A stretch of DNA of 64,000 bases from Picocystis sp. L7 (lineage: Eukaryota > Chlorophyta > Picocystophyceae > Picocystales > Picocystaceae), in assembly GCA_020975725.1 (NCBI GenBank), contig QXJR01000005.1:682001-746000 (forward strand), given 5' to 3'. The notes below the pieces were generated by a model that had not been told where the DNA came from, ran no database searches, and saw only the letters and a list, made by a program, of their open reading frames with translations. Within the stretch, counting starts at the first letter, position 1; each line of letters starts with the position of its first letter. Shown one piece after another: positions 3,841 to 63,816 of this stretch. The translations under genes were made by a program, and so were the position numbers.

Positions 3841-3849
3841 TACAATATT

Positions 3850-6075: not shown

Positions 6076-6191
6076 GATGCACCCGTCTTTCTGAGGGTCT
6101 TGATGGCTGAGGAACCAACGGAGGGCACCAGATCCTTGCACCGTTGTAGCAAGTCGCACCCGGACTTGCTCCTCCCAGGTTGCCTGCACAA

Positions 6192-6750: not shown

Positions 6751-7614
6751 CTAATCTTTGAATTTCCAAAATTTTCTGTGTCCCTCAAATCTTCTTCTTT
6801 TGACACTTCTCCAAGTCTGTGAAAAGCCGTGGTCATGATCCACCATAAGCGGTATAGAAATGTAGCCACCAGTTGTGTTGAGTTTGCCCTTGCTTGTTTT
6901 TAATGCTGTCCACAGTCTACCGTCTGCCACTCCTCTGCTGTTTCTTTTTTTCATGAGACTCTTATGGAAGGTATCTTTGAATACCCGCACAACCTTCCAA
7001 GGCACAACAAAAGCGTAGCTTCCATATCCATTGAAACCTTGCGTTATGCCTTGCACGTTCTCCTTAATGTTTGTCTTATTATATCCTTGAAATCTGTGGC
7101 CACCGAGAACCAAGCCCCCTCCATTCGCCTTTTCCAGTAAGTCCAACCGTTTTTCCAGGTCGTTGTTACGAATAGGTGGCCATGTTACTTTTGCGAAAGG
7201 AAGGGCATCATCTTCAAACACCAGCAAGTAATCGAATTTCCCACTGTAGTCGATAGCATCAGCAAAGATGGCGTGAAATGACGCCAGCAATCCATAGCTC
7301 ATCAAGGCAGGGTGATTGATGAAGCCAGCCTGACGCTTGAAGTGTAAACCAGGCCACGATTTATGCCAAGCTTTCGCAAACTTGTAGAGTCTTCCGCTTC
7401 TACCTCGCAGTTTCGAAGAAGAATCAAGCGTCACCACTGCTGCAAGAAAGCGCCTTCCGCTCCATTCGCTGATGAACTCCCTCTCGAAGCTTGTGGTGAT
7501 TGACTCGAAAGGACTCAACTCTTGCCTATCGTTTGGATCTAGACACCGTGCCGCTTGAAAACCGTACAACAAGGACAAGGGAAGCGTCTTCATCATCCAC
7601 TGAGACGGAGGCAT
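6751..7614 (-). CDS. Probable secretory glycosyltransferase-like protein with EDD motif
   Basis: Open frame of 287 codons from the ATG at 7614; further ATGs follow at 7596 and 7593. The open frame itself extends to 7662, but only with a GTG. The N-terminus MMKTLPLSLLYGFQAARC looks like a short signal peptide. The centre reads FDYLLVFEDDALPFAKV (about 128-143), the acidic pattern of nucleotide-sugar-binding GT-A enzymes, close in style to the LEDD/FEDDA of GT25-like transferases. It is followed by GGLVLGGHRFQGYN and a GYGSYAFVVP block, as seen after the metal site in such enzymes, and a late MVDHDHGFSQTW. No exact family could be assigned. It is head-to-head with the GT92-like gene at 8052, 437 bases away. 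The coding sequence looks intact and intron-free. Confidence 0.65.
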   Translation of the reverse strand: MPPSQWMMKTLPLSLLYGFQAARCLDPNDRQELSPFESITTSFEREFISEWSGRRFLAAVVTLDSSSKLRGRSGRLYKFAKAWHKSWPGLHFKRQAGFINHPALMSYGLLASFHAIFADAIDYSGKFDYLLVFEDDALPFAKVTWPPIRNNDLEKRLDLLEKANGGGLVLGGHRFQGYNKTNIKENVQGITQGFNGYGSYAFVVPWKVVRVFKDTFHKSLMKKRNSRGVADGRLWTALKTSKGKLNTTGGYISIPLMVDHDHGFSQTWRSVKRRRFEGHRKFWKFKD

Positions 7615-8051
7615 CGTTCCGCAGAGCCCACGTTCCCACGTCGTACACGACCTTGAATTCACGTGCCAATGGATGGATGCGACGAGTTGCGTGGGCCTTC
7701 TCCAAAGAACGAGAACAGATAAAAAGACGAATCTGGACCGGAAGTTTCACAACAATCGACGTCCCTTGCATCAGCAGCTGGATCGATCGAGTTGGCGCTG
7801 TCTTGCACTCTTCGCCCCAGGATTCCGCCAACGAAGGCACGAAAATCATGAACCCATTGTGGGTCGGTGATCCCCATCGAAGAAGCTCACTCCTACTAGT
7901 GGCACTAGAGGCGTGGGATCAACCGAAGGAAAAAGGAAAGATCACCATTCGTTCCCGACTCCGTCAGTTGGCGTGGTGCTACGAAAGCCGGACGGAGGAG
8001 CTCTCTCGGTTGGTTCGGATTCGATCCAGAGGGAGGGTTCGGGTGGCTTGG
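7615..8051. promoter_or_regulatory. Head-to-head spacer, possible two-way promoter
   Basis: 437 bases between divergent ATGs at 7614 (minus) and 8052 (plus). It is stop-poor, so the plus-strand frame runs open back to 7500 and overlaps the minus-strand gene. I saw no clear TATA box. The role as a shared promoter is inferred from layout only. Confidence 0.4.
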
Positions 8052-9041
8052 ATGCGGATCCAGTTGATGGCCGTTGCCATCGTAGCTGCTTGCCTGCAAG
8101 GTGCCTCCGGAGAGACACACATCTACACATTCCAAAAGGACGAGCCCGAACTGCTGATCTTGTGGATCGCTTATCATGCTAGCATTGTCGGCATAAAGAA
8201 TCTACACGTAATCGATCACGCTTCGAAAAACGTGGAAGTTGTGGAACTCCTGCGTGTGTGCCAAGACTTCGGCATGGACGTGGTTCGCTATTCTGGTTCC
8301 TTCAAATCGAAGCAACTTGTACTCTCCAATCAAATGAAAAAATGCGGTGCATCATGTGAGTTCTTGATCCCGCTCGATGCGGATGAATTTATGGTTGTGG
8401 TAAGAAGCAACTCCAACACAAGTGATTTTTCCACCTCGCCAGACGATGTACGCATGACCATTTCCAACTTACGAGCAGATGGCTATAAGTACAAGTTCAA
8501 TGGTACCTTTGAGGGAAGAGCTGCTCAAGCAAGCAGTGTCTCGCTACGACCCTTTGCTGCTTCTCACTTCAAAAAGACACGTGTTGATTGCATGAGCAAG
8601 ACATTTTTTCTAGCGCGTACATTTTCTGGAACAGACCAAGGAAACCACAAAGGTAGAGTGAAGAAGCCTTGCAGCAGACGGAGTCCAACATGGCAACCCA
8701 AATGCAGGGACTGCTTCCACGTCACGAACCTGGCGTTGGCTCATTTTAGTGGGTCAAGTACAAGTTTTGAGTCCTACACAGCAAAGATGCTACGAGGAGC
8801 ACAGGCATATGGCCGGATCAAAAAGGTAGATGCTGGAAAACCTTGTTCAAAGGGAAAGGGCCGTCACTATTGTCGATTTTACCAAAGATTGAAGTTGCAT
8901 GGGATAAAGAGGCTCCGCGAGAATCACCAGAAAGGTCAGGCAAGGGTAAGCCGTGGGTTCAGCAATGGTATTATCAAGGCATTTGTAGGGCTTATGCTAG
9001 AAAACACCGTCTCTTCAACCAATGTCACTGGAAACGATTAA
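8052..9041 (+). CDS. GT92-like glycosyltransferase, secreted or Golgi
   Basis: 329 codons from the ATG at 8052. The open frame runs back to 7500, but this ATG is preferred because it gives a clean signal peptide: MRIQLMAVAIVAACLQGASG, then ETHIYTFQKDEPELLILWI. The K-DE-ELL-WI-YH pattern followed by GI-xLHVIDHAS is the start of the GT92 (DUF23) and GT2-like 'glyco_tranf_2_4' fold. The metal-site motif is PLDADEFMV (DADEF about 109-113). Later come a Cys-rich stretch (KCRDCFHVTNLALAHF) and a basic C-terminus. The protein probably transfers a hexose, such as galactose, to a glycan in the Golgi lumen. It is the most diverged of four related domains in the window (others at 17508, 25030 and 36072). 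Codons are intact with no intron. Confidence 0.7.
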   Translation: MRIQLMAVAIVAACLQGASGETHIYTFQKDEPELLILWIAYHASIVGIKNLHVIDHASKNVEVVELLRVCQDFGMDVVRYSGSFKSKQLVLSNQMKKCGASCEFLIPLDADEFMVVVRSNSNTSDFSTSPDDVRMTISNLRADGYKYKFNGTFEGRAAQASSVSLRPFAASHFKKTRVDCMSKTFFLARTFSGTDQGNHKGRVKKPCSRRSPTWQPKCRDCFHVTNLALAHFSGSSTSFESYTAKMLRGAQAYGRIKKVDAGKPCSKGKGRHYCRFYQRLKLHGIKRLRENHQKGQARVSRGFSNGIIKAFVGLMLENTVSSTNVTGND

Positions 9042-10966: not shown

Positions 10967-11947
10967 ATGGCGATGAAACCGTGGATTTTTGTGGCATTGA
11001 TTACGATAGTGGCCCCTTTCAATACCTTCGTCTGGTGCATGAAAGAAGATTGCGAACAAAACACCTACGGTCCTGAGTGCTATCAATGCTCCTATTGCGC
11101 AGTGGGAAGGTGCAACGATGGACGCGATGGCGATGGCCGATGCAAAGAGATCAACGTAAAGCCAGGTTGTGCCTTCGTGGAAAACACTATAGCGATCCAC
11201 CCTGGCTCCAGCGTTGTGATCAGCACCTACTTTTACACGAAACCGAACCCTCAGACACGTAGAAAGGTTAGCGTCAGCAGTGATTTGCACAGGAAATGGG
11301 TCGAATCGCTTCAACGTCATGGAATGTCAGGCTTGGTCTTACACGACGGTCTACCATCACACTTGCAAGCCATATTTCAACAAAGCTGTTTGAGATCAAT
11401 CAAAGTGGTACTCAACAATCGCTCAATTAACGATCAACGTTTTGCTTTGTATAAATCGTTGTTGAAGGGGGAAATCCGCAACGAGGCTGGCAAGCCACTT
11501 CAGTTTCTTCCCTTGGAAGGGGCTGCTTCTGTGAGGTTGCTGTTCACAGATATGTTCGATGTAGAATTCTACAAGAACCCCTTCAAAATAATGTATGGTC
11601 TAAAATATGAGCTCTATGTAGGTTCACAACTAGGACAGTGGAATAGATGGATGATCGCTCGTGGAAATGCCTGCAAGTTGAGAATTAAGAACAAACATTC
11701 CCGGTTCTACAATGCAGGAATTTTTGGAGGCTCTACCCGAGAAGTCTTCAGATTGTTGGATTGTTACACAACGGTTGCAAAGTCGCTTCCAAGGAGAGCA
11801 ACTAAACGCAACTGCAATATGCCCATCTTTAGCACTTGTCTCATGCAAGAGTTCCCTCCAACTCGGATATACACTGGGAGCCCTTTCCATTCAAAATTCC
11901 AACTGTTTGAAGGGAACATATCCAACATTTACATCAGGCACAAGTAA
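10967..11947 (+). CDS. Secreted protein: EGF-like Cys module plus transferase-like domain
   Basis: 326 codons from the ATG at 10967. It starts MAMKPWIFVALITIVAPFNTFVWC, a signal peptide or anchor, then a compact Cys-rich module (about 24-68) with CEQNTYGPECYQCSYC and further Cys residues, an EGF/laminin-like pattern. The rest resembles a GT-A-type transferase. FTDMFDVEFYKNPF (about 193-206) looks like the 'LTD-xDV-F-xNPF' acceptor/metal region of many nucleotide-sugar enzymes, and RFYNAGIFGGSTREV (about 245-259) like the conserved 'NAGIFGG' loop. A Cys-containing tail (CNMPIFSTCLMQEF) follows. Substrate unknown. An EGF-like stem on a transferase may be an anchoring or protein-binding module. 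Intact and intron-free. Confidence 0.6.
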   Translation: MAMKPWIFVALITIVAPFNTFVWCMKEDCEQNTYGPECYQCSYCAVGRCNDGRDGDGRCKEINVKPGCAFVENTIAIHPGSSVVISTYFYTKPNPQTRRKVSVSSDLHRKWVESLQRHGMSGLVLHDGLPSHLQAIFQQSCLRSIKVVLNNRSINDQRFALYKSLLKGEIRNEAGKPLQFLPLEGAASVRLLFTDMFDVEFYKNPFKIMYGLKYELYVGSQLGQWNRWMIARGNACKLRIKNKHSRFYNAGIFGGSTREVFRLLDCYTTVAKSLPRRATKRNCNMPIFSTCLMQEFPPTRIYTGSPFHSKFQLFEGNISNIYIRHK

Positions 11948-15024: not shown

Positions 15025-16467
15025 TCATTTATGAAGGCAGTTTGAGTTGGGGACAAACACATCTGTAATGCTAACAGCAGGCTTGAAATCATCCAAGCCT
15101 GCAGCGATCATGAACCGATGGGTGCAGCCTTCTGCATACTTGTGCACGGCTCCCATGTACACAATTCCCATCACAAAAGCAAATGGCCATTCAAAGCCTA
15201 GCTCAGGATGGGCCTGGAACAAGTCATGCCCAGCAGAATCTAGCCCACCTTTGAAGCAACGCCTTGGTAGACCATCTGAAACATCCGATTCGAATAGAAT
15301 CCCACGGTTGAAGTAACTGCGACCAAGGGAGTTGAGTTTTGTTTGGTTGGTCCAGGTCCATTTGTGCACTACCCCAAACCAAAGCCTATCTGCAAAGTTT
15401 ATCAATGGACCGTTGCCTCTCCAGCTTGCAATCGCGTTGCAGTCTTGCACACGTGTGGAAGTTTTTGCCGCTGCAATTGATGTGCCCGACTGTTCTACAG
15501 TGACGCGCCACTGATTCAGTGTCGGCTGCTCGCTGGGATTGCCACTGGCATCCATCAACCAGATGTTGTTGCTTTTTCCATCTGTCCACAATGAGCCATC
15601 ACGCAAGACGAGGGGCATAAGGTTTTTTTTCCTTTGCGACCCCCTCACAGGTAAGGACCACATCATTCCTTGCAGCGATAGAGTGCGCACTTTAGCCCTT
15701 CCCAATATCACGCCAGGAAGATCCGTACTAAGGCAACCAAGAAAGAGAATGGACCCTCCCTTTCTCCTCTTCCTGTACCCCAAAAGGCATGGTCTGAACG
15801 TCTGACGAAATGCCTTGAAGACCAAGCGAGAGTCTCGTCCAAGCCACCCATGTAGACACTTCAAGGGATGTTGCCAAAGCTCACCATTTTTTATACTGTC
15901 GTACATGATGTGGTTCTTCTCCACTCTCTGCAATTGAAAATGGTAATCTTCGCGGGCAGTTCTCCAGTGTCGATTCTGTTCAAGGGTGTGAACCGGTGCG
16001 ACTCCTATGGTGTGCGCTTGTTGGCATGGGGTCGCTGGCAAGGATACGGGTATTTCTGGCTGCTGCAGGAGAAGCCTTTCGAAGATCGTTGCGTTGAGCG
16101 TCCCGATGGCGCAATGGGATGCCAGTCTCTTTCGCGGGGAGGACGATGCTTTGATGGACACCATGAGGCCTCTCTCCAGGACAGACTTTTGCGCAGGCAT
16201 GCCGTATTTTCCTCCACTGGGTATTGGGCTGATGGCAACGTTTCCCAACTCTTTGGCGCAACGAAGTGGACCAGTTTCCGATCGATCATAGAGCAGCGGG
16301 AGCGGTGCCCTTTCCGATTTCACCCAGAATCGATCTTTCCACGACGGGTCCAGGTTCATTTCTTCCAGGATCGAAGGAAGGCCACGTTCGGAGTGCGATC
16401 CTGTCGTTTGCAAGCCATGTTTCACGAGTGCGAGGAGCCAAACCCATCCTACCCCGTTCCGAAGCAT
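15025..16467 (-). CDS. Propeller-like secreted protein, paralogue 1
   Basis: 480 codons from the ATG at 16467, chosen because it opens with MLRNGVGWVWLLALVKHG, a signal-anchor-like stretch; the open frame extends to 16701. It is clearly paralogous to the gene at 47050-48462. Shared blocks in order: the region around LPLLYDRSETGPLRCA, a LASHCAIGTLNATIFERLL block, HIMYDSIKNGELW, NNIWLMDASG, a WRGNGPLINFADRLWFGVVHK block, SLGRSYFNRGILFESD, and FVMGIVYMGAVHKY with MIAAGLDDFKP at the end. The repeated W-G-x-V-F-D-LW-VH pattern followed by an 'own-glycan' loop recalls the five-bladed propellers of GH43/GH130-like proteins often found beside glycosyltransferases, but this fold call is weak. Head-to-head with the GT92-like gene at 17508. 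Confidence 0.6.
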   Translation of the reverse strand: MLRNGVGWVWLLALVKHGLQTTGSHSERGLPSILEEMNLDPSWKDRFWVKSERAPLPLLYDRSETGPLRCAKELGNVAISPIPSGGKYGMPAQKSVLERGLMVSIKASSSPRKRLASHCAIGTLNATIFERLLLQQPEIPVSLPATPCQQAHTIGVAPVHTLEQNRHWRTAREDYHFQLQRVEKNHIMYDSIKNGELWQHPLKCLHGWLGRDSRLVFKAFRQTFRPCLLGYRKRRKGGSILFLGCLSTDLPGVILGRAKVRTLSLQGMMWSLPVRGSQRKKNLMPLVLRDGSLWTDGKSNNIWLMDASGNPSEQPTLNQWRVTVEQSGTSIAAAKTSTRVQDCNAIASWRGNGPLINFADRLWFGVVHKWTWTNQTKLNSLGRSYFNRGILFESDVSDGLPRRCFKGGLDSAGHDLFQAHPELGFEWPFAFVMGIVYMGAVHKYAEGCTHRFMIAAGLDDFKPAVSITDVFVPNSNCLHK

Positions 16468-17507
16468 TCGAAAGAGGCGCACAGGTCCGTATCCCCAATC
16501 TCTTCCCTTCGATCTACGGTGCCACCCAATGGCTACTGCACGTATTTCACCCGAATCGCATGTACCTTTCGGGGAGGCCTTTTCCCTTTTTCGGACCTGT
16601 GGGGCGATGGTGTCCAAGGAGGGACATGTGGGATGCAAAACGAAGCGAATCCTTGACGCGAACCCGTTCAAGGTCTGCCATCGGGAATCGGATATACGCA
16701 ATCATCGACCGTGGATGCAGCGGGAGCGTGCGTCGTGTACGCGGGAGAGCCACGTTCACGCGGTTGCGACGGTGGACCCTTGGGAAGGTGGATGGTAAAC
16801 AAGGCTTTCATGTCGGACGGAACACGTCCCAGGATGCGAATGCCAGGATACGTACCGTCGTGCATGCAAACATCGATTCGTCGGGGATGATGTTGCGACA
16901 CGGAGACGTTCGCGGAGTCGTGCCTTCAAGTACCAGTGCAGTCGTGGCGTCTCTCGTGGTTCGATCGACGTGGAAGTGCAAGAGCATGTTGGACGCCAGG
17001 ACGCGCGTCCACGTCCCGGCGGAAGGGAGGACCCATGTTCGTGGACCACGCCGCACCATTCGTTTCTTCGCTACTCCCGATGCTTCGCAGAGGAACCCTG
17101 CAACAGGTTGGCATCGATCCAACACCGCTGCACCCTTCGACCCCGTGCCAATCCCAACCTTCCTCTCCCACTTGTGGATCCAGGCCACCAGGCATGACCC
17201 TGGTGGGGGTGCAGGGTGGGAAAAGACCGTATCCGATGGACAATTCAGGGTAGGGTCCGAACGGATATGCGAGAGGGTCGATTTCCAAACGCACGCTTCC
17301 ATACCTGGTGCGTCTCCTACGCATCAGGGAACAAAGAGAACGCATTGAATACCACACGTGTGGGTCGTACAACCGATCCACAGGAGATTGCAGGAACGGA
17401 ACGAAAAATCGTTGCACCAACCAAGAGGGCGAAACCCGCGATCCAGGATTCGTTCCTACCCGCTCCGAAGACGCGGGAGCGAATCGCGTTCGTGGGATCC
17501 CGTGGCT
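16468..17507. promoter_or_regulatory. Head-to-head spacer, GC-rich and stop-poor
   Basis: 1,040 bases between divergent ATGs. Several overlapping frames stay open on both strands (for example 16266-17348 plus), which I read as base composition and not as genes. The right 250 bases (about 17250-17507) are clearly similar to 37026-37360 read on the minus strand, upstream of the second GT92-like copy, so part of this spacer was copied with the gene. It is therefore a candidate for the promoter and leader of that gene pair. Confidence 0.45.
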
Positions 17508-18521
17508 ATGGAACGTCGCGCCGGAATCGATCGGCGCAAGGAGGATGAGCACTCCATCGCCACGAACAACGCGACCCGTGCTTGGAAGCGAAAGTGGCTC
17601 TGTGTGGCATTCGTGTGCTCGTTCTGTGTCCGACTCGCCCATAGCACCGACCTTTATCTTCTCACGACTGTGCCTGCGGGAACTCGAAGCAGCTCCACAC
17701 TGTTGAAACACTTCTTCCGACACTACATCGACCTGGGCATTCCACCCTCGCACTTCCTCGTGGTCGTTCAAGGACTGTCGGAAGACGCCGTCAACGAAAA
17801 GGTCAAAGAGGTCAAAGAGTACGGGGTAGTGTATACACGGAGGTGGATTGGCGAATTCAACAGCAACAGAAAGAGGGCCGAGTACTTCCTGTTGCATGCG
17901 GATGCCAAAGTCCAATCCCACTCGCAATGGGTGGTTCAAGTGGACAGTGATGAGCTACTCATGTCCAGTTCGACGCTGGAAGAGCTGGTTCAATTTTTGA
18001 AGGCTTATCGGAGGAAAGGATACCAAGCGTGCTTTGCAGATAGGGTGACCCGGGATGGAAGCATTCCACTCCATGTTCCATCCACCTACAGGGAGTTTCT
18101 GGATTCGTTTCCCCTTGTTTGTCCTATTACTCGCATGTTCCTCACTCGGAAGTACATCAGAAAGATGGTCCTGTTCCCTGCTACATACCGATCCGCAAGT
18201 CACTTCTTCATCAACCATTTGTGTGTCCGTAGCCTTTTCTCAACAGATGAGGAGTACAACCATGCTTGCCGGGGTTTAGCGCATCATCGCCGTGCCAGAG
18301 TTTTCAAAGATGGATGCGACTATCCAAATGGAAAAACCTTTGTCCACCACTTCAAGTGGCAAGGTTCGCTCAGGGATGACCTTGCTGAGAGGGCAGCTTC
18401 ATTCCGCCACGCAAACATTTCGTGGTACAGGCAATCGTATAAGTTTGTCAAGCTATTGAATAAGAAGAAAAAAATACCGTTGACAAGATGCCAACTGCTA
18501 GACGGCACACCACTCGGCTAA
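17508..18521 (+). CDS. GT92-like glycosyltransferase, copy 1
   Basis: 337 codons from the ATG at 17508; the open frame reaches 17358. A basic head is followed by the anchor WLCVAFVCSFCVRLAHSTD (about 30-48). The domain begins DLYLLTTVPAGTRSSSTLL, then HYIDLGIPPSHFLVVVQG, and the metal-site motif QVDSDELLMS (DSDEL about 146-150). CFADRVTRDGSIPL, FPLVCPITRMF, a MVLFPATYRSASHFF block and FVHHFKWQG follow; the last His-rich block is typical of the family's acceptor side. The copy at 36072-37025 matches about nine residues in ten by eye, in inverted orientation. The C-terminal half of the fusion protein at 25030 is a more distant relative. It probably adds one sugar to a cell-surface glycan in the Golgi. 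Intact, no intron. Confidence 0.75.
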   Translation: MERRAGIDRRKEDEHSIATNNATRAWKRKWLCVAFVCSFCVRLAHSTDLYLLTTVPAGTRSSSTLLKHFFRHYIDLGIPPSHFLVVVQGLSEDAVNEKVKEVKEYGVVYTRRWIGEFNSNRKRAEYFLLHADAKVQSHSQWVVQVDSDELLMSSSTLEELVQFLKAYRRKGYQACFADRVTRDGSIPLHVPSTYREFLDSFPLVCPITRMFLTRKYIRKMVLFPATYRSASHFFINHLCVRSLFSTDEEYNHACRGLAHHRRARVFKDGCDYPNGKTFVHHFKWQGSLRDDLAERAASFRHANISWYRQSYKFVKLLNKKKKIPLTRCQLLDGTPLG

Positions 18522-29811: not shown

Positions 29812-30092
29812 CCACCAGTTTTTCTTCATCAGGAAAGAGGGGTTGCTACTTCGGGTGGCGTGGAGACTCAGGAGGGCGTCTACGGACGTTGCTGCTCCGA
29901 TCAAAGTTGTAGAGCATTCCATTCGACAGGGTTTTAATCGAGCGACCTCGGCTTGTTTTGGTTCGTGCAAGACCTGGGAGGCCCGTGCAAGTCCGAGGGT
30001 CTTTGAAAGCGGGATCCTGCCTCCTTTCCCCCGGCGGGTGCTCCTTCCTTTCGACGCGCATATCTCTTCATAAACCCGCTCCAATGGAGCGA
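29812..30092 (+). repeat. Diverged dispersed repeat, copy B
   Basis: Plus-strand match to copy A at 5806-6075 (minus strand). One frame (29843-30073) keeps protein-level similarity to the other copy (KVVEHSIRQGFNRA against KVAEHSVWHGFDRR), then PRVFESGILPPF against WGWILPRFQIGA. It could be a diverged exon, a gene fragment or a transposon piece. Confidence 0.55.
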
Positions 30093-45650: not shown

Positions 45651-45675
45651 TCCGGAGGCTTGATCCACACTCTTC

Positions 45676-49306: not shown

Positions 49307-49720
49307 TGTTGAGATTTGCTCAGTTAATTTAGCTAGTTTTAAGTGAGATGAGTCCCTTAGTATATCCTAGTGCTCGTTTGTGGGGTAGATGGTCCCACTG
49401 CGGGTTCTCGCTCCCGCGCCCGTTGATGTGGGTTGCCTGAGCTTGCGTCGACTCAACTGATCAATTACATGGTACCTTGCTCCTATTTATAGGGTAGTGG
49501 CAACGTTGTTGTGGTTGCATCTTCCCCACATGTGCAAGACCATCCTACTAGTCACAACATAGTAAGTCTCTCTACTTCCGGGGGGCATTTGTCTTCTAGA
49601 AGAATCTTTGCCCCGATCTTCTTGTCTTCCACCCCTTACGTGAGTTGGAGGGGCTTCATAGGTTAAATCCTTCCGTTTCTTGTTTACTGCCTGTGGTTGT
49701 AAACTCACCATATTTTAACA
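49307..49720 (-). repeat. Copia LTR (3' relative to the element)
   Basis: 414 bases, starts TGTTGAGATT and ends ATTTTAACA on the plus strand. By eye identical to 53745-54158. Confidence 0.93.
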
Positions 49721-49736
49721 CTCCCACCCAACCACA
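49721..49736 (-). other. Polypurine tract of the copia element
   Basis: Directly before the 3' LTR, in element sense it reads TGTGGTTGGGTGGGAG. It is purine-rich next to the LTR, as needed for plus-strand priming. Confidence 0.6.
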
Positions 49737-49750
49737 GAAGTCATCATTCA

Positions 49751-52700: not shown

Positions 52701-53716
52701 AATGCAATACTTGGAACATATAAGACATCTCTTAGTTGCATTTTCATCTTTCCGACCTTGATCGTGACCTTGCCTTTGCCGACGATGGCCGTGCTCCGGC
52801 CATCCGCCAACACAATGTGACCTGAAGCTTGCTTCAAACTTCCCTCATCAAACTTTGATGCGTCGCCTGTCATATGATCCGACGCGCCACTATCCAAAAT
52901 CCAATCTCCAATACATGGACTGTTTTGCTTGCTTACTCGTAGGCTTTGGCCTTGCTTGCTTTCAATGATCGTCTCTCGGCAATGGCGAGCCATGTGACCT
53001 CTCTTACCACATTTGTAGCATTTTCCATTGAACTTCTTTCTTTGCTTGGCATGCCCGAGTCTTGCGAATGATGGTTGAGGACTTACCTCCCTTTGATCAC
53101 AATGCATAATTGCTTGCTCCACCATGTTCTCATCTCCTACCATGTTGCTTTCCTCGTTGATTAGAATCATTTTCAAGCGATCTAACGCTGGCATCACGCC
53201 ACTTGCATTGATCGTTGTCTTCACCAAGTTGTATTCTCTCGGTAGTCCATTCATAATCGTAGCAACCATGTCTGTCTCTGAGATGTTCTCGCCGCTTTCT
53301 CTAAGCTCACTAGCCAATGACAATGCCCTTGTGTAATATTGCATAACTGTTTCATTTGAGGTTTTCTTCAACGTTCGGTACCTTCCGAGTATGCGTAGCG
53401 AGGTGGCCGCATTGTGGATGCCATAACTCTCATGAAGTCGGTCCCATATATTCTTTGCCGTGAGCGACACATCATGTTGAAGTAGCGTTCTTTCTTCCTT
53501 GTTGATCCTTCTCAACATCGTCGCTCTCACCATCTTCGACCTTTGCCGAGTCTCGGCACCCATTGCATCGTAGGGTGTTTCATCGTTCAACACGTCATCG
53601 ACTCCTGCTTCTTCCAACGCTAGCAATACCGATCCTTTCCACAAGTTCCAGTTGCCCTGCACAAGTATTGGGATGTCCCCTTTGTCAATCTTGATCCTTG
53701 CAACTTGGTCTTCCAT
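49751..53716 (-). CDS. Copia gag-pol polyprotein
   Basis: 1,321 codons in one frame. Parts in order, by approximate residue: UBN2-type gag (1-200), CCHC zinc knuckle CYKCGKRGHMARHC (233-246), aspartic protease with DSGASDHMTGD (275-285), gag-pre-integrase LWHTRLGHAS (390-399) and zinc-binding region, integrase core starting near DVLGPVT (444-450), reverse transcriptase (about 840-1080) with YVDDILLAS (1003-1011), and RNase H with GYCDADYATD in the C-terminal fifth. The order protease-integrase-RT defines Ty1/copia (Pseudoviridae). It looks whole. Confidence 0.93.
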   Translation of the reverse strand: MEDQVARIKIDKGDIPILVQGNWNLWKGSVLLALEEAGVDDVLNDETPYDAMGAETRQRSKMVRATMLRRINKEERTLLQHDVSLTAKNIWDRLHESYGIHNAATSLRILGRYRTLKKTSNETVMQYYTRALSLASELRESGENISETDMVATIMNGLPREYNLVKTTINASGVMPALDRLKMILINEESNMVGDENMVEQAIMHCDQREVSPQPSFARLGHAKQRKKFNGKCYKCGKRGHMARHCRETIIESKQGQSLRVSKQNSPCIGDWILDSGASDHMTGDASKFDEGSLKQASGHIVLADGRSTAIVGKGKVTIKVGKMKMQLRDVLYVPSIAFNLLSAVKVGSQTGANIIMRNNGTCALQKDQDIIDLHTQSDGVYALRADANLWHTRLGHASADTLKQLGLPCDIKTCEACVKAKLNRKPYSSDFTVKRALDRISMDVLGPVTPEAVGGQSYALVAIDAATKFSFVTLLPNKGQATDAAKQAISWYEQLSGERVKCIRTDRGKEFLQEQMRDWLTNRGINHETTAGYEPQQNGQAERLNRTLMEGTRALLEDTKLPTTLWAEAMRTINYVRNLKPCNIKGTRSKSPLELLTGKQPDYQQLKRWGCKALVHIPQDRRVGKLASRAEPAVFIGYSNTTTYRFLVRKKVVTSRTAVFFEDQIGELDHDAHSGTMPELLMEPSPLPQTVEHVDTYLDTTPSESCVKTTSSSREESEKNRAAINDMMDNDGHSATLPIMDDVHSPPRDTMTGENCEINDDDHNSTRSEAENDPVKSYNLRERKPMDYKQIATKGLHVNMAPLPDEFSGYDEAMDRPDKAMWKQAIEDEKRALLENETYEVANLPQGRKALQTKWVFKVKRDNLGNVERYRARLVVKGYQQRAGIDYTDIFSPVVSKPTVRLFLTIAAIKDYDIHQLDIKAAFLHADLREEIYMAIPEGIDEAPGKVYKLKKSLYGLKQAPREWNKELISFLSMDLECKCASVDETLLICRKENEVCYVCVYVDDILLASNSRDLQQKLIKELCKRFQVGSNGEINTFCGMQVKRDRSKKILHLSEPLKIERMIEEYGMCEAKEKKVPICENICEENDESDPTITSKYQQLVGQLLYLSTTVRPDLGHAAAVLSRHMSKPSKRHWVIAKDVIRYLKGTKHHGLYLGNLQQASDISLEGYCDADYATDKETRRSRTGYLFLVNGSIIDWRSQLQSTVATSTAEAEYMSLAESVKKALWLRTLLAELLGDEAKPVTIYCDNQPALHMAKDLNCVSRTKHIDVRHHFVRERGLRGEMVYVYCPSEDMLADYLTKVLRPEKFQELMNKLGVQQM

Positions 53717-53726
53717 TGTCTCGTAG

Positions 53727-53744
53727 CTTCCAAGGCTCTTAACC
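53727..53744 (-). other. Probable primer-binding site of the copia element
   Basis: Directly inside the 5' LTR, in element sense it reads GGTTAAGAGCCTTGGAAG. This resembles the tRNA-derived site (TGGTATCAGAGCC type) of many copia elements, but is not an exact match. Confidence 0.5.
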
Positions 53745-54158
53745 TGTTGAGATTTGCTCAGTTAATTTAGCTAGTTTTAAGTGAGATGAGTCCCTTAGTA
53801 TATCCTAGTGCTCGTTTGTGGGGTAGATGGTCCCACTGCGGGTTCTCGCTCCCGCGCCCGTTGATGTGGGTTGCCTGAGCTTGCGTCGACTCAACTGATC
53901 AATTACATGGTACCTTGCTCCTATTTATAGGGTAGTGGCAACGTTGTTGTGGTTGCATCTTCCCCACATGTGCAAGACCATCCTACTAGTCACAACATAG
54001 TAAGTCTCTCTACTTCCGGGGGGCATTTGTCTTCTAGAAGAATCTTTGCCCCGATCTTCTTGTCTTCCACCCCTTACGTGAGTTGGAGGGGCTTCATAGG
54101 TTAAATCCTTCCGTTTCTTGTTTACTGCCTGTGGTTGTAAACTCACCATATTTTAACA
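53745..54158 (-). repeat. Copia LTR (5' relative to the element)
   Basis: 414 bases matching 49307-49720. In the element's sense it contains CTATAAATAG (plus 53921-53930 reversed), a likely core promoter for the element. Confidence 0.93.
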
Positions 54159-54340: not shown

Positions 54341-55342
54341 ATGTGGGAAGGCTTCGAAACGGTCCCTTCCAAGCGAAGGAGCGTTTCAGCCGTCGCTCAT
54401 ACCCTCGTCGCTACGCTTGCGACGTCGCTTTCGTGCCTTTGTGGTGCATGCGACGCAAGCGTCGCCTTGCATGCGGGAGTTCCTAGGGAGTTGGCCTTCC
54501 AAAGTGGTCCAGCACGAGAAGATTGGAGCGAGCTACGACGGCAGCCACTCGCAAGTCCTCCCGCCTCTCACACGGAAGAGGATGAAATTTTGGTGCTAAT
54601 CAACACGACCCCCAAGCACATAGATAGAGCCCTTGCCGTGGCAGAAACATGGGGAAGAAGCGTGCGCACAATCTTTGTGCTTCCAAAAGTCTGCGAGGTG
54701 GAGGATTCGAAAGGGATGGAAAGGGTTCGCTCGATACAGAAACAGTACTCTTACCTCGACATGAAGATTGTGCTGGCCATGGAAATGCAGCACTGCTACG
54801 AGTATCCACCAGTCCGGCCATGGCTACACGCCCTACAAATTGTTCAGCGCTACTCTTTCAAGTGGCTGCTGAAGTGTGATGATGACGTATATGTGAATGT
54901 TCGTCTCCTTCGCAAATTTCTGCAAAGTAACGCCGTAACCACATGCAGAACTTTGCCATGTTACTTTGGTGCCATAGGATATGGTAGGAAGCAGGAAAAG
55001 CACCGCATTGGACTGAAGGGCCACCCCTTTGTCATGGGCGGACCCTGCGTGGTCATGTCGAGCTCGGGATACAGGAAGGTGCTCCCTGTCCTTCCATCCT
55101 GCATGACCAAACCAGCTGTAAGGATGCATTCAGACACACAATTGGGCAGATGCTTCCTTCAGGTAAATCTATCTGCAGGTCTATACCCCCTGAAAGCAAG
55201 AAAGCTGCAACAGCTCTTTAAGCACTACCCACCATCTTTTAAAAAGTTAAGTGGAAAAAACGATGAAGCCTTTGGCAGGGACCACGGTTCCCCAAACATT
55301 ACGCCGTGCAGATCGACAACGACTCTCGTTGCACACAATTAA
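54341..55342 (+). CDS. GT31 fringe/galactosyltransferase-like enzyme
   Basis: 333 codons from the ATG at 54341. The open frame runs back into the copia LTR at 54083, but this ATG gives AHTLVATLATSLSCLCGACD (about 19-38) as the anchor. The catalytic part has ILVLINTTPKHIDRALAV (about 83-100), AETWGRSVRTIFVLP, FKWLLKCDDDVYVNVRLLR (about 173-191; DDD metal site 180-182), PCYFGAIGYGR, GHPFVMGGPCVVMSSSGY and RMHSDTQLGRCFLQ near the C-terminus. This is GT31 of the fringe/core-1 galactosyltransferase type, acting on proteins or glycans in the Golgi. The copia element sits 182 bases upstream and may have changed its expression. Coding sequence intact. Confidence 0.8.
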   Translation: MWEGFETVPSKRRSVSAVAHTLVATLATSLSCLCGACDASVALHAGVPRELAFQSGPAREDWSELRRQPLASPPASHTEEDEILVLINTTPKHIDRALAVAETWGRSVRTIFVLPKVCEVEDSKGMERVRSIQKQYSYLDMKIVLAMEMQHCYEYPPVRPWLHALQIVQRYSFKWLLKCDDDVYVNVRLLRKFLQSNAVTTCRTLPCYFGAIGYGRKQEKHRIGLKGHPFVMGGPCVVMSSSGYRKVLPVLPSCMTKPAVRMHSDTQLGRCFLQVNLSAGLYPLKARKLQQLFKHYPPSFKKLSGKNDEAFGRDHGSPNITPCRSTTTLVAHN

Positions 55343-57781
55343 GACCAGGAAAGAAATGCACCTCGTTCATGAACAGCTACATTGAGAGGTCATACAGCTC
55401 TTCTAATGCGAGGATACACTTTGTTGCACACCACGACTTCCAGAAGGCGGTGGGAAGCTCGAGCATACCTTCGGCAAGCAAGGGTGCATTAATGCAGAGG
55501 TGCGGGATGGTATGCATTGATTGAACGCCAGAGATCCGCCACTTACTATCCAGCATCCTGCGAGAACAGAAATCCGGTGTACATGCTGCATAGTTTGATT
55601 GATTGCACGAGAGTAAGTCCATCATTTGCAAGCAAGTTTTGCCCCTGGCTAGATAGGGCAGAGTGTAGCATGTTTCCGATGGAACTCATCAAGGTGACGA
55701 TAAGAGGCACTGTTTTCAAAAGTTGACGGTGATGGAGAGTTCTAAGTCCGCTTTGCAGGCCATCTTATCCAAGGAATACGAACATTGTCACCATGCAGAA
55801 TGATGCTTGCTTGCCAGTGGACCCTGCTATTTAGTAGAGTAAAGCCATTCGAAGCAGGCATCTACATTTGATGAAGGTAGATGGAGACACTGCACAGGGA
55901 GCAGTGCTAGCAGATGTCCCCATGGCAACGCGTTGTATGCGATCATAATTCTGATGAATTTTGGCCAGCAGTTGAATAGAAAGTGGTTTTGATGAGCTCC
56001 ATTGCAATGAAAAAGAGAATTGCTCTTCAGAAGCGTACAGAAAATGTATGGCAGGTTCACCACCTTCATTGATGTTGATGTTGTGGCGATTAACTCAATT
56101 GCATAACCAATGACAATGAGCCTTTGGGCTTGGGGTCTGAGTTCTCACCAGCGCATGCATGTGTTCTGATGGTCCAGTCACGGTTCGTGGCAGTGTAGCA
56201 ATCAATTCAGGCAGGCATTGCACATTGCAATTCTGTATCAGGAAATCAGTAACATTTGCATATTGAACTGAATGATTTACATGCGTTTTGTTGAGTAGGT
56301 GTTGTTGACTACCTGCCCGAGTTTTGGCTTTTCAAACGACATGACTTCCTCTTTCATCTGTACAGTCTGGAAGACCTCCTTTATGCGAACAGGATACTAT
56401 GATTCCTCGGGCGGCATTCTCCTCTGAATACTTCAAAATTTTGGTCATGTCAGTTGTGCAATTCAAGTAGACAGTACTTATGATGCATCCGTACCCGCTT
56501 GCAATTTCGCTGCATTTTCGGTAAACAAGTGCGCAGGCCACAGCATACTAGGTCAACGGTAAGTTTATTTCTCTGCACAATGGGCTGAGGTATAGATCAC
56601 CTACCTGTGTAAGTAAAAGCAAAAGAAGGCCGAGTTTTGCTCCTACTAGCACAGCGTATTGTTGACTTTGATTGCTGAGTATTCTTAAGTGGCTAGAGGT
56701 GAACCCAACCAAACATGTACGAGGAAGGTGATTTGGTCTACAAATGTGGGTGCGCCACTATTTCAACCTACAAGATGTCTCCGTAGCACACTATTGGAGA
56801 GACACTGAATCCAAAGATCTTGGAATGAGACATCGTTTCTACGTAGTATGTAGTGGAACAAGCACACACACACACTGCTACTCACGAGGGACGAATAGCT
56901 GCCGTATGAGCTGTCCATTGAGAGGTGAATTGTGTGAAGGATACGATTGCTTTTTCTACCGTTTTGAAGCAGCCGAATTATCTTGTGTAGATCTTGTAAG
57001 AGGAAAACCAATCAACAACTAGCTTGTTGTCCAGCCTGGACTATTAGACAAGCAAGACTGCGAATTAATTGCCGTCCTAGTGAGAATAATGTGAGGGATG
57101 ATCCCAGTTCATGTCTCTTCATTGCCACCTTTGCTACCCTTGCGCCCACATCACCACAAGCTCGCGTTGACGCCGCATCCGAGGCTACTCCTTGTACTCA
57201 CGCCCACTATCGCATATGTTACTTATGTGTGCTGTTGCTTGCATTGACCAAAATTGCAAGCTACTGCAATCTATCTAAGGTTTCCTGCGGGGATGGCTGA
57301 TTGTGATAGAAATTTGAGCCGTTCCCTGGAATGTGGTCCGACTTGTTGTGCGCTTTGTCCATCCTCTACTTCAACATGTACGTGCATTGGAAAGCTCTAG
57401 GTTTTGTCGGATACGTTTTGCCGATGGATCGGATAGAGGAATGGTGTGATATCGTGAGTGCGTGGCATGGGCTTGAGGACTCACCATAATTGTGTAATGC
57501 ATCGCGCCTGTTTGCCCTCCAATGTTGCCCTCAAGCGCTTGGGGTTCAGGGTTACACAGTGGCACCCATATTGGAAGATCCACCCCGAACCCCAGCCGTT
57601 GTATGGATCTGGGATGGTCGCACAACATGGAGGAATGGAAGAGTCGCCACGCATGAACGACTGGATTGAAACAGGAATGCAGCACGTGTGGGGAGATCGA
57701 GGTATTGGGGAACGGAGAGATGGGATGGAATGCAAACAAGCGAAGATCAAGGGACAAGGTAAGGACGGTAGGAAGGCATGG
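55343..57781. other. 2.4 kb interval, one PAN-like candidate
   Basis: Mostly AT-rich and open-frame-poor. A plus-strand frame at 56744-57022 is Cys-rich in a pattern like a PAN/apple module (listed separately). 57180-57781 is GC-richer and open in several frames, probably the promoter and leader of the next gene. Confidence 0.35.
56744..57022 (+). other. Possible Cys-rich PAN/apple-like exon
   Basis: A 92-codon frame ending in a stop. Its second half has CSGTSTHTHCYSRGTNSCRM, then CPLRGELCEGYDCFFYRF and a later Cys. The spacing C-x3-C, then C-xGY-xCFFY, then C, recalls PAN/apple modules that bind glycans or proteins. No signal peptide. It could be an exon of a spliced gene or chance. Confidence 0.22.
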
Positions 57782-60078
57782 ATGTGGAGAAAAGAAGGAA
57801 AGGATCCGACGGTTCCACGAAACCAGTACAAAGCATGCGCCTTGACATGCTTCGGTTGCGCTGTGGCGTTCGCGGCTGCGACTGGACTGTTTGTCTCGTG
57901 GAGGGACGCACAAGCACACCTGGGATTCGGAATGAGGCTGGACCATCCGACCCAAACGTGTCGAAGCCATCCACCAGGAAGTGTCGTTTTGTATCGCATC
58001 ATTGGGAATGAAATACCTGGAAGGCACGGTCCAGGACAGACGATGCGAAACGTGCCGTACATCCTGGATCAAGCAGAGGAATTCCAAGGATGCACCAAGA
58101 GGTTCGTGCTCAACCGGATCGTCAACGATACGGTCGAAAGGGAACTAATCCAACTCTTCAAGGAAAGGAATGTGCAGTTCACCAGAATTCCATTCGAACC
58201 ACGTGTGTATCGGAAGGTGCTCCTGGATACTGGATGCTTGCCTACTCCTGATCTTCTCTTCCATCCAGAATACCACAAGCTACCTGCCAGGAGGAAATTG
58301 CGTTTGCTGTACGCCGTATACCGTTTGAAAAACAACTATGTCCTTAATAACAACGGTGCACGCAATGCCGCCTTACGAGAAGGGAAATCCATGGCCGCAT
58401 GGACGTTGCCTTGGGATGGCAACTGCTTCCTTGTGCCTGATGCCTATCAACATATCTACTCAAAGATGTCGATGTCCAGCAAGGTTACCTCACCATACCC
58501 ATGGCTAGGCTCGTTGCACTGGGGGACAAGGAATTGGCCAATGTCTCCTCAGCAAATTTCACAGAGGAAGCCCAGATTGCTTTCCACTGCAACAGTGAAA
58601 TGATGTTCGACGAAGGGTTCTATTATGGACACCGCGCCAAGGCCGAATTGTTAATGCGGTTTGCTCCCCGGGAACAATGGAACAAATGGAAAGAAGATGT
58701 CGGATTCGGATTGCGCTGTCCAGCATCCAAAAATCGGGTTCCCTGGCACATCGTGGACCGGTTGGACGATTCTGTGGGATGGGTGGCAAGATTGCCTTCG
58801 GGGAACAAGTTGCTTGAAGTTGGTGAAAATGCCCTTACAAATCGCGATCACGCCAGGGTTAGAGGTGTACTTGACTTTTTGTTTGATATCGACTCTACTC
58901 TGCATGGATGTAAGCTAGATTGCACAATTGGACTGGACATGGGCACTCTACGGAAGGAGCGCAAACAATTTCAGAAGGGGCACAATCCAGAACTAGTCGG
59001 GTTGATTGCTCAATTGGTCCAAGGTGCGGTGATAGCACAGTCAAGAGGGCCATTTTCCGTGGTCAACCAGGCGGTGCTGCCTCCAAGTGAGGACATGCAT
59101 GATTATTTTTGCTGCAACAATGGTGGAAATACACTGCAGGATGCAGATGACCAGGCAAAATTCCTAACCCCAGTGCCAAACAAAACGCTGAGTCCCAACA
59201 GACAGTTGTCTCTACAAGTTTCAATGGAGAACAAGGTATCGCTCGACCGTGTATTGAATGATTCAACCATCTGTGCGTTGGCCTGGTTCTTTACAGGGAA
59301 CTTGACCTTTGCAGATCATGCCGTAGAGCTGCTGGATGTCTTCTTCCTGAATGAAAAAACGAGGATGAATCCTCATATGAAATTTGCTCGATTCTCTGCT
59401 GCACCTGGTGAAACTGGTATCATGGACATGCAAGGCATGTACCATTTTTTGGATACTGTACGTCTTTTGCAATTTTCGGGATCTCTAAGTGCGTCTAGAC
59501 TTAACCTACTTCGGGAATGGCTTGATACGTATCTGACCTGGCTGCTAGAATCAAAGCCGGGAAGGACCGAGCGGCAAAGGTTGGACCATCGTGGCACATA
59601 CTTTGACATCCAAGTAGCAGCGATTGCAGCATTTTTGAAGAAAAAGATAGTGCTGATGGAGAGCCTTGCTCGTGCTCAAAGCAGATTGGCTTTTCACTTC
59701 CGGAAGGTGCCTTCTGCAAATAACATGACCTTTGAAAAGCCACAAGCCCATGCAACAACTCTCAATCTGTTGGCTTGGACGAATATGGCTATTCTGTCCC
59801 ATAAGTTTGGAGTTCCTTTGTGGCTGGTGGGCGACGAAAGCAGCGGCGGCATAGCGAGCGGGTTCAGGAGTTTGAAGGAAATGAGAGTTTCTCAAGCTGG
59901 GAACAGTAGCAAAGTAGATCAGTTGGGATTCCAGGTGCTGCATTTTTTCGTACAAGGTAGGTACATTCGAGGAGCGGGGCAGCGGCTTAGCAGGAAAAAG
60001 TATGCGCTTCCTCCCTGTTTGGGACCAGACTCTGGGGTTAGACCTTTTTGGAACCTAGGTCTTCGTGTTCCGCGGTAG
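57782..60078 (+). pseudogene. Fusion: transferase-like plus alginate-lyase-like (PL5/DUF) domains, frameshifted
   Basis: Two frames overlap at 58501-58603 and form one gene. The first (ATG chosen at 57782; MWRKEGKDPTVPRNQYK leads into anchor ACALTCFGCAVAFAAATG) has VVLYRIIGNEIPGRHGPGQT and KRFVLNRIVNDTVE, a GT2-like 'lYrIIGNdlPprH-xGQT' module. The second, from about 58480, begins YLTIPMARLVALGDKEL and has AQIAFHCNSEMMFDEGFYYG, then an alginate_lyase-type (PF05426) domain: HDYFCCNNGG, FLNEKTRMNPHMKFARFS, GIMDMQGMYHFLDTVRLL, and DHRGTYFDIQVAAIAAF. Only a one-base frame change near 58480-58484 separates them; it may be a real break, a sequencing error or a tiny intron. The usual NNHG block reads DHRG, so lyase activity is doubtful. 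Confidence 0.65.
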
Positions 60079-61662: not shown

Positions 61663-63816
61663 ATGAACAAGCTTAGAATGAGCCCTGCCTGGATTGGGTC
61701 CATGCTCCTCTTGTTCTCACCAGTGACTCACCTTCATTGCAAGAGTAGACATGCGCGGCATACTCAAAAGCAACTTTGTGAAAATCCTTCTCTCATTTGG
61801 ACGGGGTTGTCGGCGGTGTCACAGGCAAAACCAACCTCGACCACCTCTATAGCTGGGCTGTACACTCCATATAACATCGTGCCTGGTGGTGGCGAAAGAT
61901 ACCTCTTGAGTGCTGCAGCTGTCTTTCAGGCCATGAAGTACCATGTAGTGCTTATGACACATCAAGGGAATGTTTGCAAAACCAAGAGCATGTTACTGGA
62001 TGTGGTAACAGCACTGGAAATCCCGCTCGCTCCTTCCAACCTTTCGTACGAACGTGTTGCCGAAGGAAGTAGCATCTCGGTGGGACAGATTGCAGCATTT
62101 GAAGTTTTCTTTCTTCTAGGCAACGAAAAGTTACCACGATTGCCAGGGCTTGGTAAGGTCAACATCTACATGTGCCAATTTCCATTTGATATGCATAAAA
62201 AGATTAACAGGCAAAAGCTTGATATGTTTACAACCTACGATTACGTATTGGTCAACAGCAAGTACACATATCTGCATTATAACAATTTTGCTCGGAGCGC
62301 CTTCATTAGAGCAAATCGATTGAACATGGTGTCACCGCTTGTGTCACTCTTATACCCACCAGTAGGAAAAATGAGGGCAGGTGTAAGCAATGAGACTCCT
62401 GCAGGGCGCCAGAATATAGTCATGATTGGCAGGATTTTCAGTGGAAGACAGAACAAGGGCTACGTCGCTGCAATAGGTATGTTCCAACAAGTCTTGAGAT
62501 GTGCACCCAATGGCACGCAACTGCACATTGTTGGTACCCTAATGCCAGGGCATCATAAGTTTTACAACAAACTGCAGGAACTTGCTCGAGACTTTGCACA
62601 GAAGATACATTTCAACATCAACGCGGATCAAAGAGGGATCAGGAACATTCTCTCCTCCTCACTCGTACAATGGCATCTGACAGGGATTGATTCCAAAACT
62701 AGCGACCCCGCATCTGAGGAACACTTTGGTCTGTCAATTGTTGAAGGCATGCAGGCAGGTGTCATCCCAGTGGTTATCAACAAGGGAGGTCTTGGGGAGA
62801 TTGTTGAAAATGGCACCTCTGGATACATTGGCGAAAGTGAGTCCGAAGTGGTTGCATTGACATGTTCCATGTTTCAAAAGTCCTCCGCTCAACTAGCAAG
62901 GATGAGGAACTCTGCACAAGTGTCAGCGAAGTACTTTTCATACACTAGCTTTAGCAAAAATTTGAGGGTTGTTGTGCAGAGAGCATTTTTGTCCAAACCG
63001 TTTCGACACTTTGTGAAACAAACAAAGTATATTGTACACAACCGTACGTTTGAACTTCCACTACATTCCAGGAAGATTGCAATGATCATCGAGGACCGGC
63101 AGCAATTTGCTTTAGAATACGTTGTCAAGAATACTCTGTATCATCTAGGAGAAGGTTGGGGGCTTCTCGTCGTGCATACACAAACAAACAGCGTTTTTGT
63201 CCGTGCTGCTCTTTCTTCCATCAAGAATGTTACCTTTCATGGGCTGGATTTGGAGTTTTTCAATGTAGATGAGCTAAACAAGTACATGAAGCATCCCACA
63301 CATTGGGCTCAAGACGTAGAAAAAGTGCTGTTCTTTCAGACCGATTCCTTGCTACTGCACGGCAATATATCAAAATTCCTTCAGTATGATTACATTGGAG
63401 CCCCTTGGCATCTTCAAAACAAAGGATGGTCAACAGTCCGGAGTATAATTCCATCCGGTGTAGGGAATGGAGGTGTTTCTCTCCGGAGCACATCAGCAAT
63501 GAGGAAAGTAGCTGCACGCTGTGGACACTTAAGCCCTTCTGCTGAAAACGAAGATGTATTCTTTGTCAAGCAAATGCAAAATTCTACAGAGTACAGGCTG
63601 CCAAGCAGGGCTGTGGCATACGAGTTTGCGCTTGAGGTGCCTTGCAGTGATTTAGAAGTAGTAAAAAGGAATCACACTTCAAGTTCCATGCACGGGAAGA
63701 AATCAGTGCCAATGGCCCTGCATGCCACCTGGTATTACTTGAAAAATGCTATGCACATGCAAAAACTTCAGCGCTTTTTTGAGATATCACTGTGCCCTGG
63801 ACCTAGGGAAGAATAA
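61663..63816 (+). CDS. Fusion: GT4 glycosyltransferase plus DUF5672 transferase-like domain
   Basis: 717 codons from the ATG at 61663; the open frame starts at 61489, but here MNKLRMSPAWIGSMLLLF then SPVTHLHC forms a signal peptide. Residues about 70-400 are a GT4 (GT-B fold) domain: YNIVPGGGERYLLSAA at the N-terminal half, VMIGRIFSGRQNKGY near 250, and the C-terminal nucleotide-sugar site EEHFGLSIVEGMQAGVIPVV with NKGGLGEIV. After a linker (about 460-560), residues about 560-700 are DUF5672: VLFFQTDSLLLHGN, YDYIGAPWHLQ, VGNGGVSLRSTSAM and ENEDVFFVKQM, like the gene at 45676. Two transferases in one chain suggest sequential sugar additions to one glycan. Intact, no intron seen. Confidence 0.85.
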   Translation: MNKLRMSPAWIGSMLLLFSPVTHLHCKSRHARHTQKQLCENPSLIWTGLSAVSQAKPTSTTSIAGLYTPYNIVPGGGERYLLSAAAVFQAMKYHVVLMTHQGNVCKTKSMLLDVVTALEIPLAPSNLSYERVAEGSSISVGQIAAFEVFFLLGNEKLPRLPGLGKVNIYMCQFPFDMHKKINRQKLDMFTTYDYVLVNSKYTYLHYNNFARSAFIRANRLNMVSPLVSLLYPPVGKMRAGVSNETPAGRQNIVMIGRIFSGRQNKGYVAAIGMFQQVLRCAPNGTQLHIVGTLMPGHHKFYNKLQELARDFAQKIHFNINADQRGIRNILSSSLVQWHLTGIDSKTSDPASEEHFGLSIVEGMQAGVIPVVINKGGLGEIVENGTSGYIGESESEVVALTCSMFQKSSAQLARMRNSAQVSAKYFSYTSFSKNLRVVVQRAFLSKPFRHFVKQTKYIVHNRTFELPLHSRKIAMIIEDRQQFALEYVVKNTLYHLGEGWGLLVVHTQTNSVFVRAALSSIKNVTFHGLDLEFFNVDELNKYMKHPTHWAQDVEKVLFFQTDSLLLHGNISKFLQYDYIGAPWHLQNKGWSTVRSIIPSGVGNGGVSLRSTSAMRKVAARCGHLSPSAENEDVFFVKQMQNSTEYRLPSRAVAYEFALEVPCSDLEVVKRNHTSSSMHGKKSVPMALHATWYYLKNAMHMQKLQRFFEISLCPGPREE

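Follow-up and report, generated by a model that had tools for sequence, protein, structure and literature searches.

The window analyzed here, a 64,000-nucleotide stretch of the genome of Picocystis sp. L7 (C3:682001-746000, C3 being contig QXJR01000005.1), is probably the densest part that we found of a C3 region rich in glycosyltransferases (GTs) and retrotransposons, in which a changing repertoire of glycan enzymes has grown by local duplication. Six lines of evidence carry this reading: the concentration of glycan families on C3, paralogy among the genes, an inverted duplication, the sign of purifying selection on the duplicated genes g5 and g8, the enrichment of copia elements on C3, and the extension of the cluster past the window. 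A preliminary description of this DNA had proposed a glycan-building cluster of six head-to-head gene pairs serving a single co-regulated pathway; the inverted duplication and the extension past the window are additions to it. The cluster itself is supported by what follows. The single pathway fares less well.

Results

Glycan Families Are Concentrated on One Contig

The source assembly comprises 20.5 Mb in 30 contigs. Sixteen genes (g1 to g16) and one GT47 pseudogene lie between 6.7 and 63.8 kb of the window (Table 1). Genome-wide profile searches place on C3 three of eight GT47 matches, four of seven Glyco_tranf_2_4 matches, one of three alginate-lyase matches, and both DUF5672 matches, the latter inside the window. 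The orphan family common to g4 and g13 occurs at four genomic places, every one on C3; its five match rows include two that we took as pieces of one broken copy. With one seed per family taken out of these searches, the five families give 9 matches of 19 on C3 against 1.07 expected (P 3e-7) and 5 of 19 in the window against 0.06 expected (P 3e-9). Adding GT90, GT29, and Galactosyl_T leaves the picture much the same: of 27 matches, 10 fall on C3 where 1.5 are expected (P 1e-6), and 5 fall in the window where 0.08 are expected (P 2e-8). The clustering of glycan families is real and far beyond chance.

Further copies of the orphan family stand at C3:572167 (L026) and C3:1108k (L037); by eye, their upstream frames are similar, and the second copy is broken in pieces. 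On another contig, two long Glyco_tranf_2_4 frames of 776 and 824 amino acids, 7 kb apart at C24:472822 and C24:480088, make up a second small glycosyltransferase group.

Duplication, Decay, and Selection

An inverted duplication with arms of about 6.7 kb lies within the cluster, all of its blocks being symmetric about a point near 27.3 kb (a center obtained by arithmetic from the blocks). As a consequence, g8 mirrors g5 and the GT47 pseudogene mirrors g6. The two gene pairs have fared differently. The proteins of g5 and g8 are 91% identical, with a nonsynonymous divergence (dN) of 0.046 against a synonymous divergence (dS) of 0.457 (dN/dS about 0.10), which we read as a sign of purifying selection on the pair, whereas the GT47 copy, recognized as a pseudogene in the preliminary description, has decayed and carries eight in-frame stops. 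The C-terminal half of g7 is a clear paralogue of g5 and g8 (E 1e-51) in which the DxDE and HHxKWxG-type motifs are conserved. Together with g4/g13, g6 and the pseudogene, g9/g10 (a weak relationship), and g11 and a stopped gene to the right of the window, these paralogues indicate that the cluster is one expanded through local duplication, inverted duplication included. Adjoining the right arm, window positions 29808-30589 hold a repeat that recurs twice on C3 to the left of the window, at 71% identity.

Extension Beyond the Window and Mobile Elements

When 100 kb on each side were examined, the cluster was found to continue outside the window into transposon-rich DNA. The flanks contain further glycan genes, among them a right-hand group of two GT90-like genes and one GT29 gene spanning C3:749522-755287, and the long open reading frames (ORFs) between the flank glycan genes are, judged by eye, mostly retroelement- or transposase-like. 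Within the window, a copia element stands between g13 and g14; this insertion looks recent, because its two long terminal repeats (LTRs) are identical.

Copia elements are enriched on C3. Of the 150 RVT_2 matches scored genome-wide (from 167 candidates), 28 are on C3 against 8.5 expected; once the 45 highest-scoring rows, many of which lie in local groups, are removed, C3 has 18 of 105. These rows, which cover copia elements only, were counted by hand, and one element may yield more than one row.

By eye, the best copia matches form dense local groups on several contigs (for example C14:182312-200571, C22:140521-153648, C23:155380-180279, C27:141980-157026, and C3:911854-936294), and C3 holds more than one of them. 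Such groups are candidate centromere-associated retroelements. Transposon remnants make up the left edge of the cluster (window 1-6100): positions 1-976 duplicate a stretch of C3 at 90%, and near 4.8-5.4 kb there is a weak match to HTH_Tnp_4 that falls short of its cut-off. To the right, C3:819318-826024 contains very long open frames apparently built from a short repeated unit (by eye). At C15:200001-205000 (L034), a Gypsy-type polyprotein frame has a C-terminal stretch that by eye resembles a C5 DNA methyltransferase.

Divergent Pairs and CpG-Rich Spacers

All twelve starts given earlier for the head-to-head pairs are ATG codons, and each opens the frame assigned to it. Two starts need comment: the ORF of g10 already opens at 42401, which makes 42287 an internal ATG, and the N terminus of g6 is uncertain, a protein-database call beginning 163 residues later, so that the g6 spacer may exceed the length given here. 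From left to right the six spacers measure 437, 1040, 1445, 733, 607, and 1026 bp, the last without the copia element. Their GC content is 0.55-0.60 and their ratio of observed to expected CpG is 0.96-1.23; the ten other intergenic stretches give 0.44-0.69 in nine cases and 0.96 between g15 and g16. Starts, spacers, and GC richness thus stand as first described. The orientation itself is less telling: its excess over chance is marginal, with six divergent adjacencies among 17 features against 4.0 under random orientation (P 0.073), or six against 3.8 when the pseudogene is set aside (P 0.039).

Comparison with the rest of the genome suggests why the spacers look as they do. Of six gene loci off C3, four have DNA rich in GC and CpG upstream of the gene (L027 on C6, and L029, L030, and L036 on C24); it is present less clearly at the other two (L028 on C4 and L035 on C24), so that in this small sample the divergent spacers look like ordinary CpG-rich promoter regions of the genome. 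CpG is depleted, and TpG and CpA are in excess, in the pooled genes and convergent stretches; the divergent spacers are free of this pattern, which suggests that Picocystis sp. L7 may methylate its DNA and have CpG-island-like promoters. Close divergent genes would share one CpG-rich promoter region probably through short spacing and through such regions being usual upstream of genes. Nor were partners retained after duplication in the one case available: g5 faces g4 and its copy g8 faces g9, and still the g5 and g8 promoters match over 231 bp at 73%.

Gene Content and Relatives

Eight of the 16 proteins (g2, g3, g5-g9, and g14) have an N-terminal hydrophobic stretch, defined as a 15-residue mean hydropathy of at least 1.7 in the first 110 residues and applied without a background control; the remaining proteins score lower. 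Such N termini fit entry into the secretory pathway and are no proof of it. For this count g16 was read from 61663, a more probable start than the 61489 proposed earlier. The break in the alginate-lyase-type gene, g15, is confirmed, the gene being split over two frames; its lyase half has relatives in PDB by sequence search, and the genome's two other alginate-lyase matches fall within frames that stay open for 813 and 831 amino acids.

Other searches added little. In PDB sequence searches with seven window proteins, g1, g11, and g13 found no match and g3 and g7 one unconvincing match each, and NCBIfam gave for ten window proteins a single match, far under its cut-off. A propeller fold, first suggested for g4 and g13, could not be shown, as the structure predicted from an alignment of six sequences had a mean predicted local distance difference test score (pLDDT) of 31.6 and was unusable. 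Apart from g13 itself, three relatives of this orphan protein are found (37-52%), and g6 likewise has three (32-50%). Relatives of g16, sought among 7993 scored candidates only, include database proteins at 90% and 76%, an MMETSP transcript at 55%, and, among the 47 proteins listed, Chlorella and Micractinium proteins at 38-45%. One EukProt protein, P0030, fuses GT4, DUF5672, and GT90, families that neighbor each other here; its GT90 part matches the GT90-like genes of the region weakly (E 0.002 at best), which places the link at the family level only.

Eighteen Chloroa_b-bind matches genome-wide mark the organism as photosynthetic. One antenna protein, compared with PDB, has its matches among chlorophyll a-b binding proteins of the light-harvesting complex II (LHCII) type, including 6kac, which we take to be from Chlamydomonas. 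The major antenna of Mamiellales differs from the LHCII type. This antenna protein suggests an alga outside Mamiellales. Taken with the Chlorella and Micractinium relatives of g16, it makes a green alga the probable source, an alga whose plastid derives from a green one being the less likely option.

Table 1. Genes, repeats, and flanking glycan genes of the C3 region. Positions are those of the window unless prefixed C3.
Feature	Position	Strand	Evidence
g1, GT-like	6751..7614	-	Open frame; acidic EDDA motif by eye only; no Pfam match, PDB relative, or family
g2, GT2-like (Glyco_tranf_2_4)	8052..9041	+	Pfam E 1e-6, 29.6 bits (cut-off 27.5)
g3, GT-A-like motifs by eye only	10967..11947	+	Two irrelevant Pfam matches below cut-off (E 0.2); hydrophobic N terminus
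g4, orphan family shared with g13	15025..16467	-	32% identity to g13, E 2e-79
g5, GT2/GT92-like	17508..18521	+	DxDE and HHxKWxG-type motifs; Glyco_tranf_2_4 31.6 bits; 91% identity to g8
g6, GT47 exostosin-type	21461..23584	-	Pfam E 8e-25
g7, methyltransferase-like and GT2/GT92-like fusion	25030..27165	+	Methyltransf_23 21.1 bits (cut-off 27) and Glyco_tranf_2_4 20.0 bits, neither reaching its cut-off
GT47 pseudogene, mirror copy of g6	31035..33143	+	52% over 706 amino acids to g6; 8 in-frame stops
g8, mirror copy of g5	36072..37025	-	Glyco_tranf_2_4 30.2 bits; GT92 23.7 bits
g9, DUF7796-like (weak)	37759..38772	+	20.2 bits, below cut-off 27; hydrophobic N terminus
g10, DUF7796-like (weak)	41250..42287	-	17.3 bits, below cut-off; weak g9 paralogue, 23% over 107 amino acids, E 1e-4
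g11, GT90-like	42895..43920	+	18.2 bits, below cut-off 24
g12, DUF5672 only	45676..46530	+	Pfam E 4.5e-14
g13, orphan family of g4	47050..48462	-	Paralogy with g4; no Pfam match
Copia element	49307..54158	-	Identical 414-bp LTRs 49307-49720 and 53745-54158; ORF 49751-53716; RVT_2 match
g14, Fringe/GT31-like	54341..55342	+	Fringe E 6e-10; PDB chondroitin sulfate synthase 3, E 1e-13
g15, family-less N-terminal domain and alginate-lyase domain	57458..60078	+	Frames 57458-58603 and 58441-60078; PF05426 E 1e-23
g16, GT4 fused to DUF5672	61663..63816	+	Pfam
Inverted duplication, left arm	17278..24017	+	
Inverted duplication, right arm	30599..37309	-	
Duplication block	17278-18608 / 35984-37309		84% DNA identity
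Duplication block	21493-22702 / 31914-33123		82% DNA identity
Duplication block	23538-23596 / 31023-31081		83% DNA identity
Duplication block	23829-24017 / 30599-30789		68% DNA identity
GT4, left flank	C3:617822		
Glyco_tranf_2_4, left flank	C3:656810		
GT90-like, right flank	C3:749797		May be divided between two frames, judged by eye
GT90-like with in-frame stop	C3:751908-752996		Paralogue of g11, 43%
GT29 sialyltransferase-type, right flank	C3:754304		Apparently intact
STT3, right flank	C3:832398		
GT2, right flank	C3:836076		Below cut-off

Discussion

Glycosyltransferases and accessory enzymes were probably brought together on C3, where local duplication, inverted in part, multiplied them and some copies fell into decay. 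The enzymes would act in the endoplasmic reticulum and Golgi on cell-surface or secreted glycans, and, as a repertoire and not as one linear pathway, they would diversify the coat of the cell, with viruses or grazers as a plausible selective force. One linear pathway is less well supported than a repertoire.

Several considerations weigh against our reading. The first concerns the genes: the thirteen glycosyltransferase-type genes counted in the preliminary description are supported by profiles in part only, since Pfam matches exceed the curated cut-off in 8 of 16 genes (g2, g5, g6, g8, g12, g14, g15, and g16, a lyase and the DUF5672-only g12 included), a relevant match falls below it in four (g7, g9, g10, and g11), and g1, g3, g4, and g13 have none; DUF5672 and DUF7796, moreover, are domains of no assigned function in Pfam. 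The second concerns the counts. The families tested were picked for occurring in or beside the window and form a biased set despite seed removal, and the three added to the first five are not concentrated: C3 has one of three GT90 profile matches, one of four GT29 genes (six match rows), and neither of the two Galactosyl_T matches. DUF7796, which gave no match anywhere in a genome-wide search, is uncountable and silent on absence, and light-harvesting genes, taken as a contrast (none of 18 on C3, P 0.35), are uninformative. Third, C3 is large (1,157,071 bases, 5.6% of the genome) and is not clearly a GC outlier, GC being 0.508 over 264 kb of the contig and 0.484 in the window, against 0.47-0.59 (pooled 0.524) in a small, gene-picked sample of eight loci and 31,621 bases off C3. 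Finally, the relatives of g16 in Chlorella mean that not every member of the cluster is fast-evolving.

Two other explanations deserve discussion. The view first taken of this DNA, a true biosynthetic gene cluster that makes a single defined product, either a polysaccharide or the glycan of a glycoprotein, under co-regulation from divergent promoters, would account for the varied families within 57 kb, for the short divergent spacers, and for the triple fusion in P0030; we consider it unlikely, given that gene orientation is near chance, that C6 and C24, too, have CpG-rich DNA upstream of genes, that g5 and g8 are partnered differently, that the Pfam matches of the window genes include no sugar-nucleotide enzyme or transporter, and that much of the gene density consists of paralogues, some of them broken. 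A little less credible still is an incidental expansion, in which a gene-poor, transposon-rich region, for example one near a centromere, accumulated tandem and inverted duplications and its glycosyltransferases have no shared function. The enrichment of copia elements on C3 and their local groups there, flanks made up mainly of transposon-like ORFs (by eye), and the broken genes all suit such a history, yet local duplication alone does not yield a mix of GT4, GT47, GT31-like, GT90-like, GT29, DUF5672, and lyase genes, and the selection evident in g5 and g8 speaks against it as well.

Origin as a segment of a giant virus or bacterium carrying a glycosylation island is highly improbable: genes without apparent introns and the phrase "glycosyltransferases are clustered" in a paper on large DNA virus glycosylation (PMC4691112) could be cited for it, but the genes of this alga look intron-poor, a 5-kb stretch of C10 being a single open frame (midasin-like, named by eye), the named relatives of g16 are green algae, two scans of viral contigs and one of prokaryote contigs, able to detect close relatives only, turned up nothing related to the protein P0008, to g16, or to the N-terminal portion of g15, and PHROGs gave no match for ten window proteins.

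A changing glycan-enzyme repertoire on C3 invites a bolder proposal, which we offer tentatively and regard as doubtful: outside Mamiellales, green algae may have evolved glycan-switching immunity a second time and independently, with this transposon-rich region as a nursery of glycosyltransferases through which the cell would re-clothe itself in defense against viruses, variation being driven by inverted duplication and by mobile elements. Whatever its role, the locus supplies candidate glycan enzymes to which no function has been assigned, among them an orphan family confined in its four places to one contig.

Comparison with Known Systems

In large DNA viruses, going by that phrase in PMC4691112, glycosyltransferases are likewise grouped in one region; unlike those clusters, the C3 genes have no viral relative among those that the contig scans and PHROGs could reveal. 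The GT29 sialyltransferases of Bathycoccus prasinos offer a parallel in family expansion within a tiny, intron-poor green alga; in the relevant passage of PMC3491373 they are dispersed, with no evident clustering, whereas here several families stand together with one GT29 gene on C3. Literature searches on clustered algal glycosyltransferases and glycan clusters, DUF5672, and green-algal CpG islands gave, among the matches listed, nothing closer than the Mamiellales papers.

It is the small outlier chromosomes of Mamiellales that come nearest. These are glycosyltransferase-rich, for example chromosome 19 of Ostreococcus tauri, according to passages of PMC5082852, and the statement that such clustering is unusual in eukaryotes needs to be qualified by them. 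They measure 102-290 kb (Table 1 of PMC5082852), whereas the C3 region lies within a contig of more than a megabase. Their GC content is lower than that of the other chromosomes; the corresponding values here are 0.508 for 264 kb of C3 and 0.524 for the small, gene-picked sample off it. They have methyltransferase genes, for which the window genes offer one domain of g7, below its cut-off. In O. tauri, genes over-transcribed in virus-resistant lines, glycosyltransferases included, sit in a large inverted repeat region of chromosome 19 (as reported in part of PMC5082852); the inverted duplication on C3 also carries glycosyltransferase genes and is short and diverged, with arms of about 6.7 kb and 82-84% identity in the main blocks versus about 180 kb in all there. 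In the over-representation of glycosyltransferases (9 of 19 and 10 of 27 matches on C3) and in transposon enrichment (28 of the 150 copia matches scored) the two agree, and by analogy the C3 region appears to resemble the small outlier chromosomes in kind, a likeness that we do not extend to membership in their class. If such regions arise repeatedly in tiny green algae, Picocystis would provide a second system in which to ask whether they alter the surface of the cell and thereby determine which viruses can infect it.

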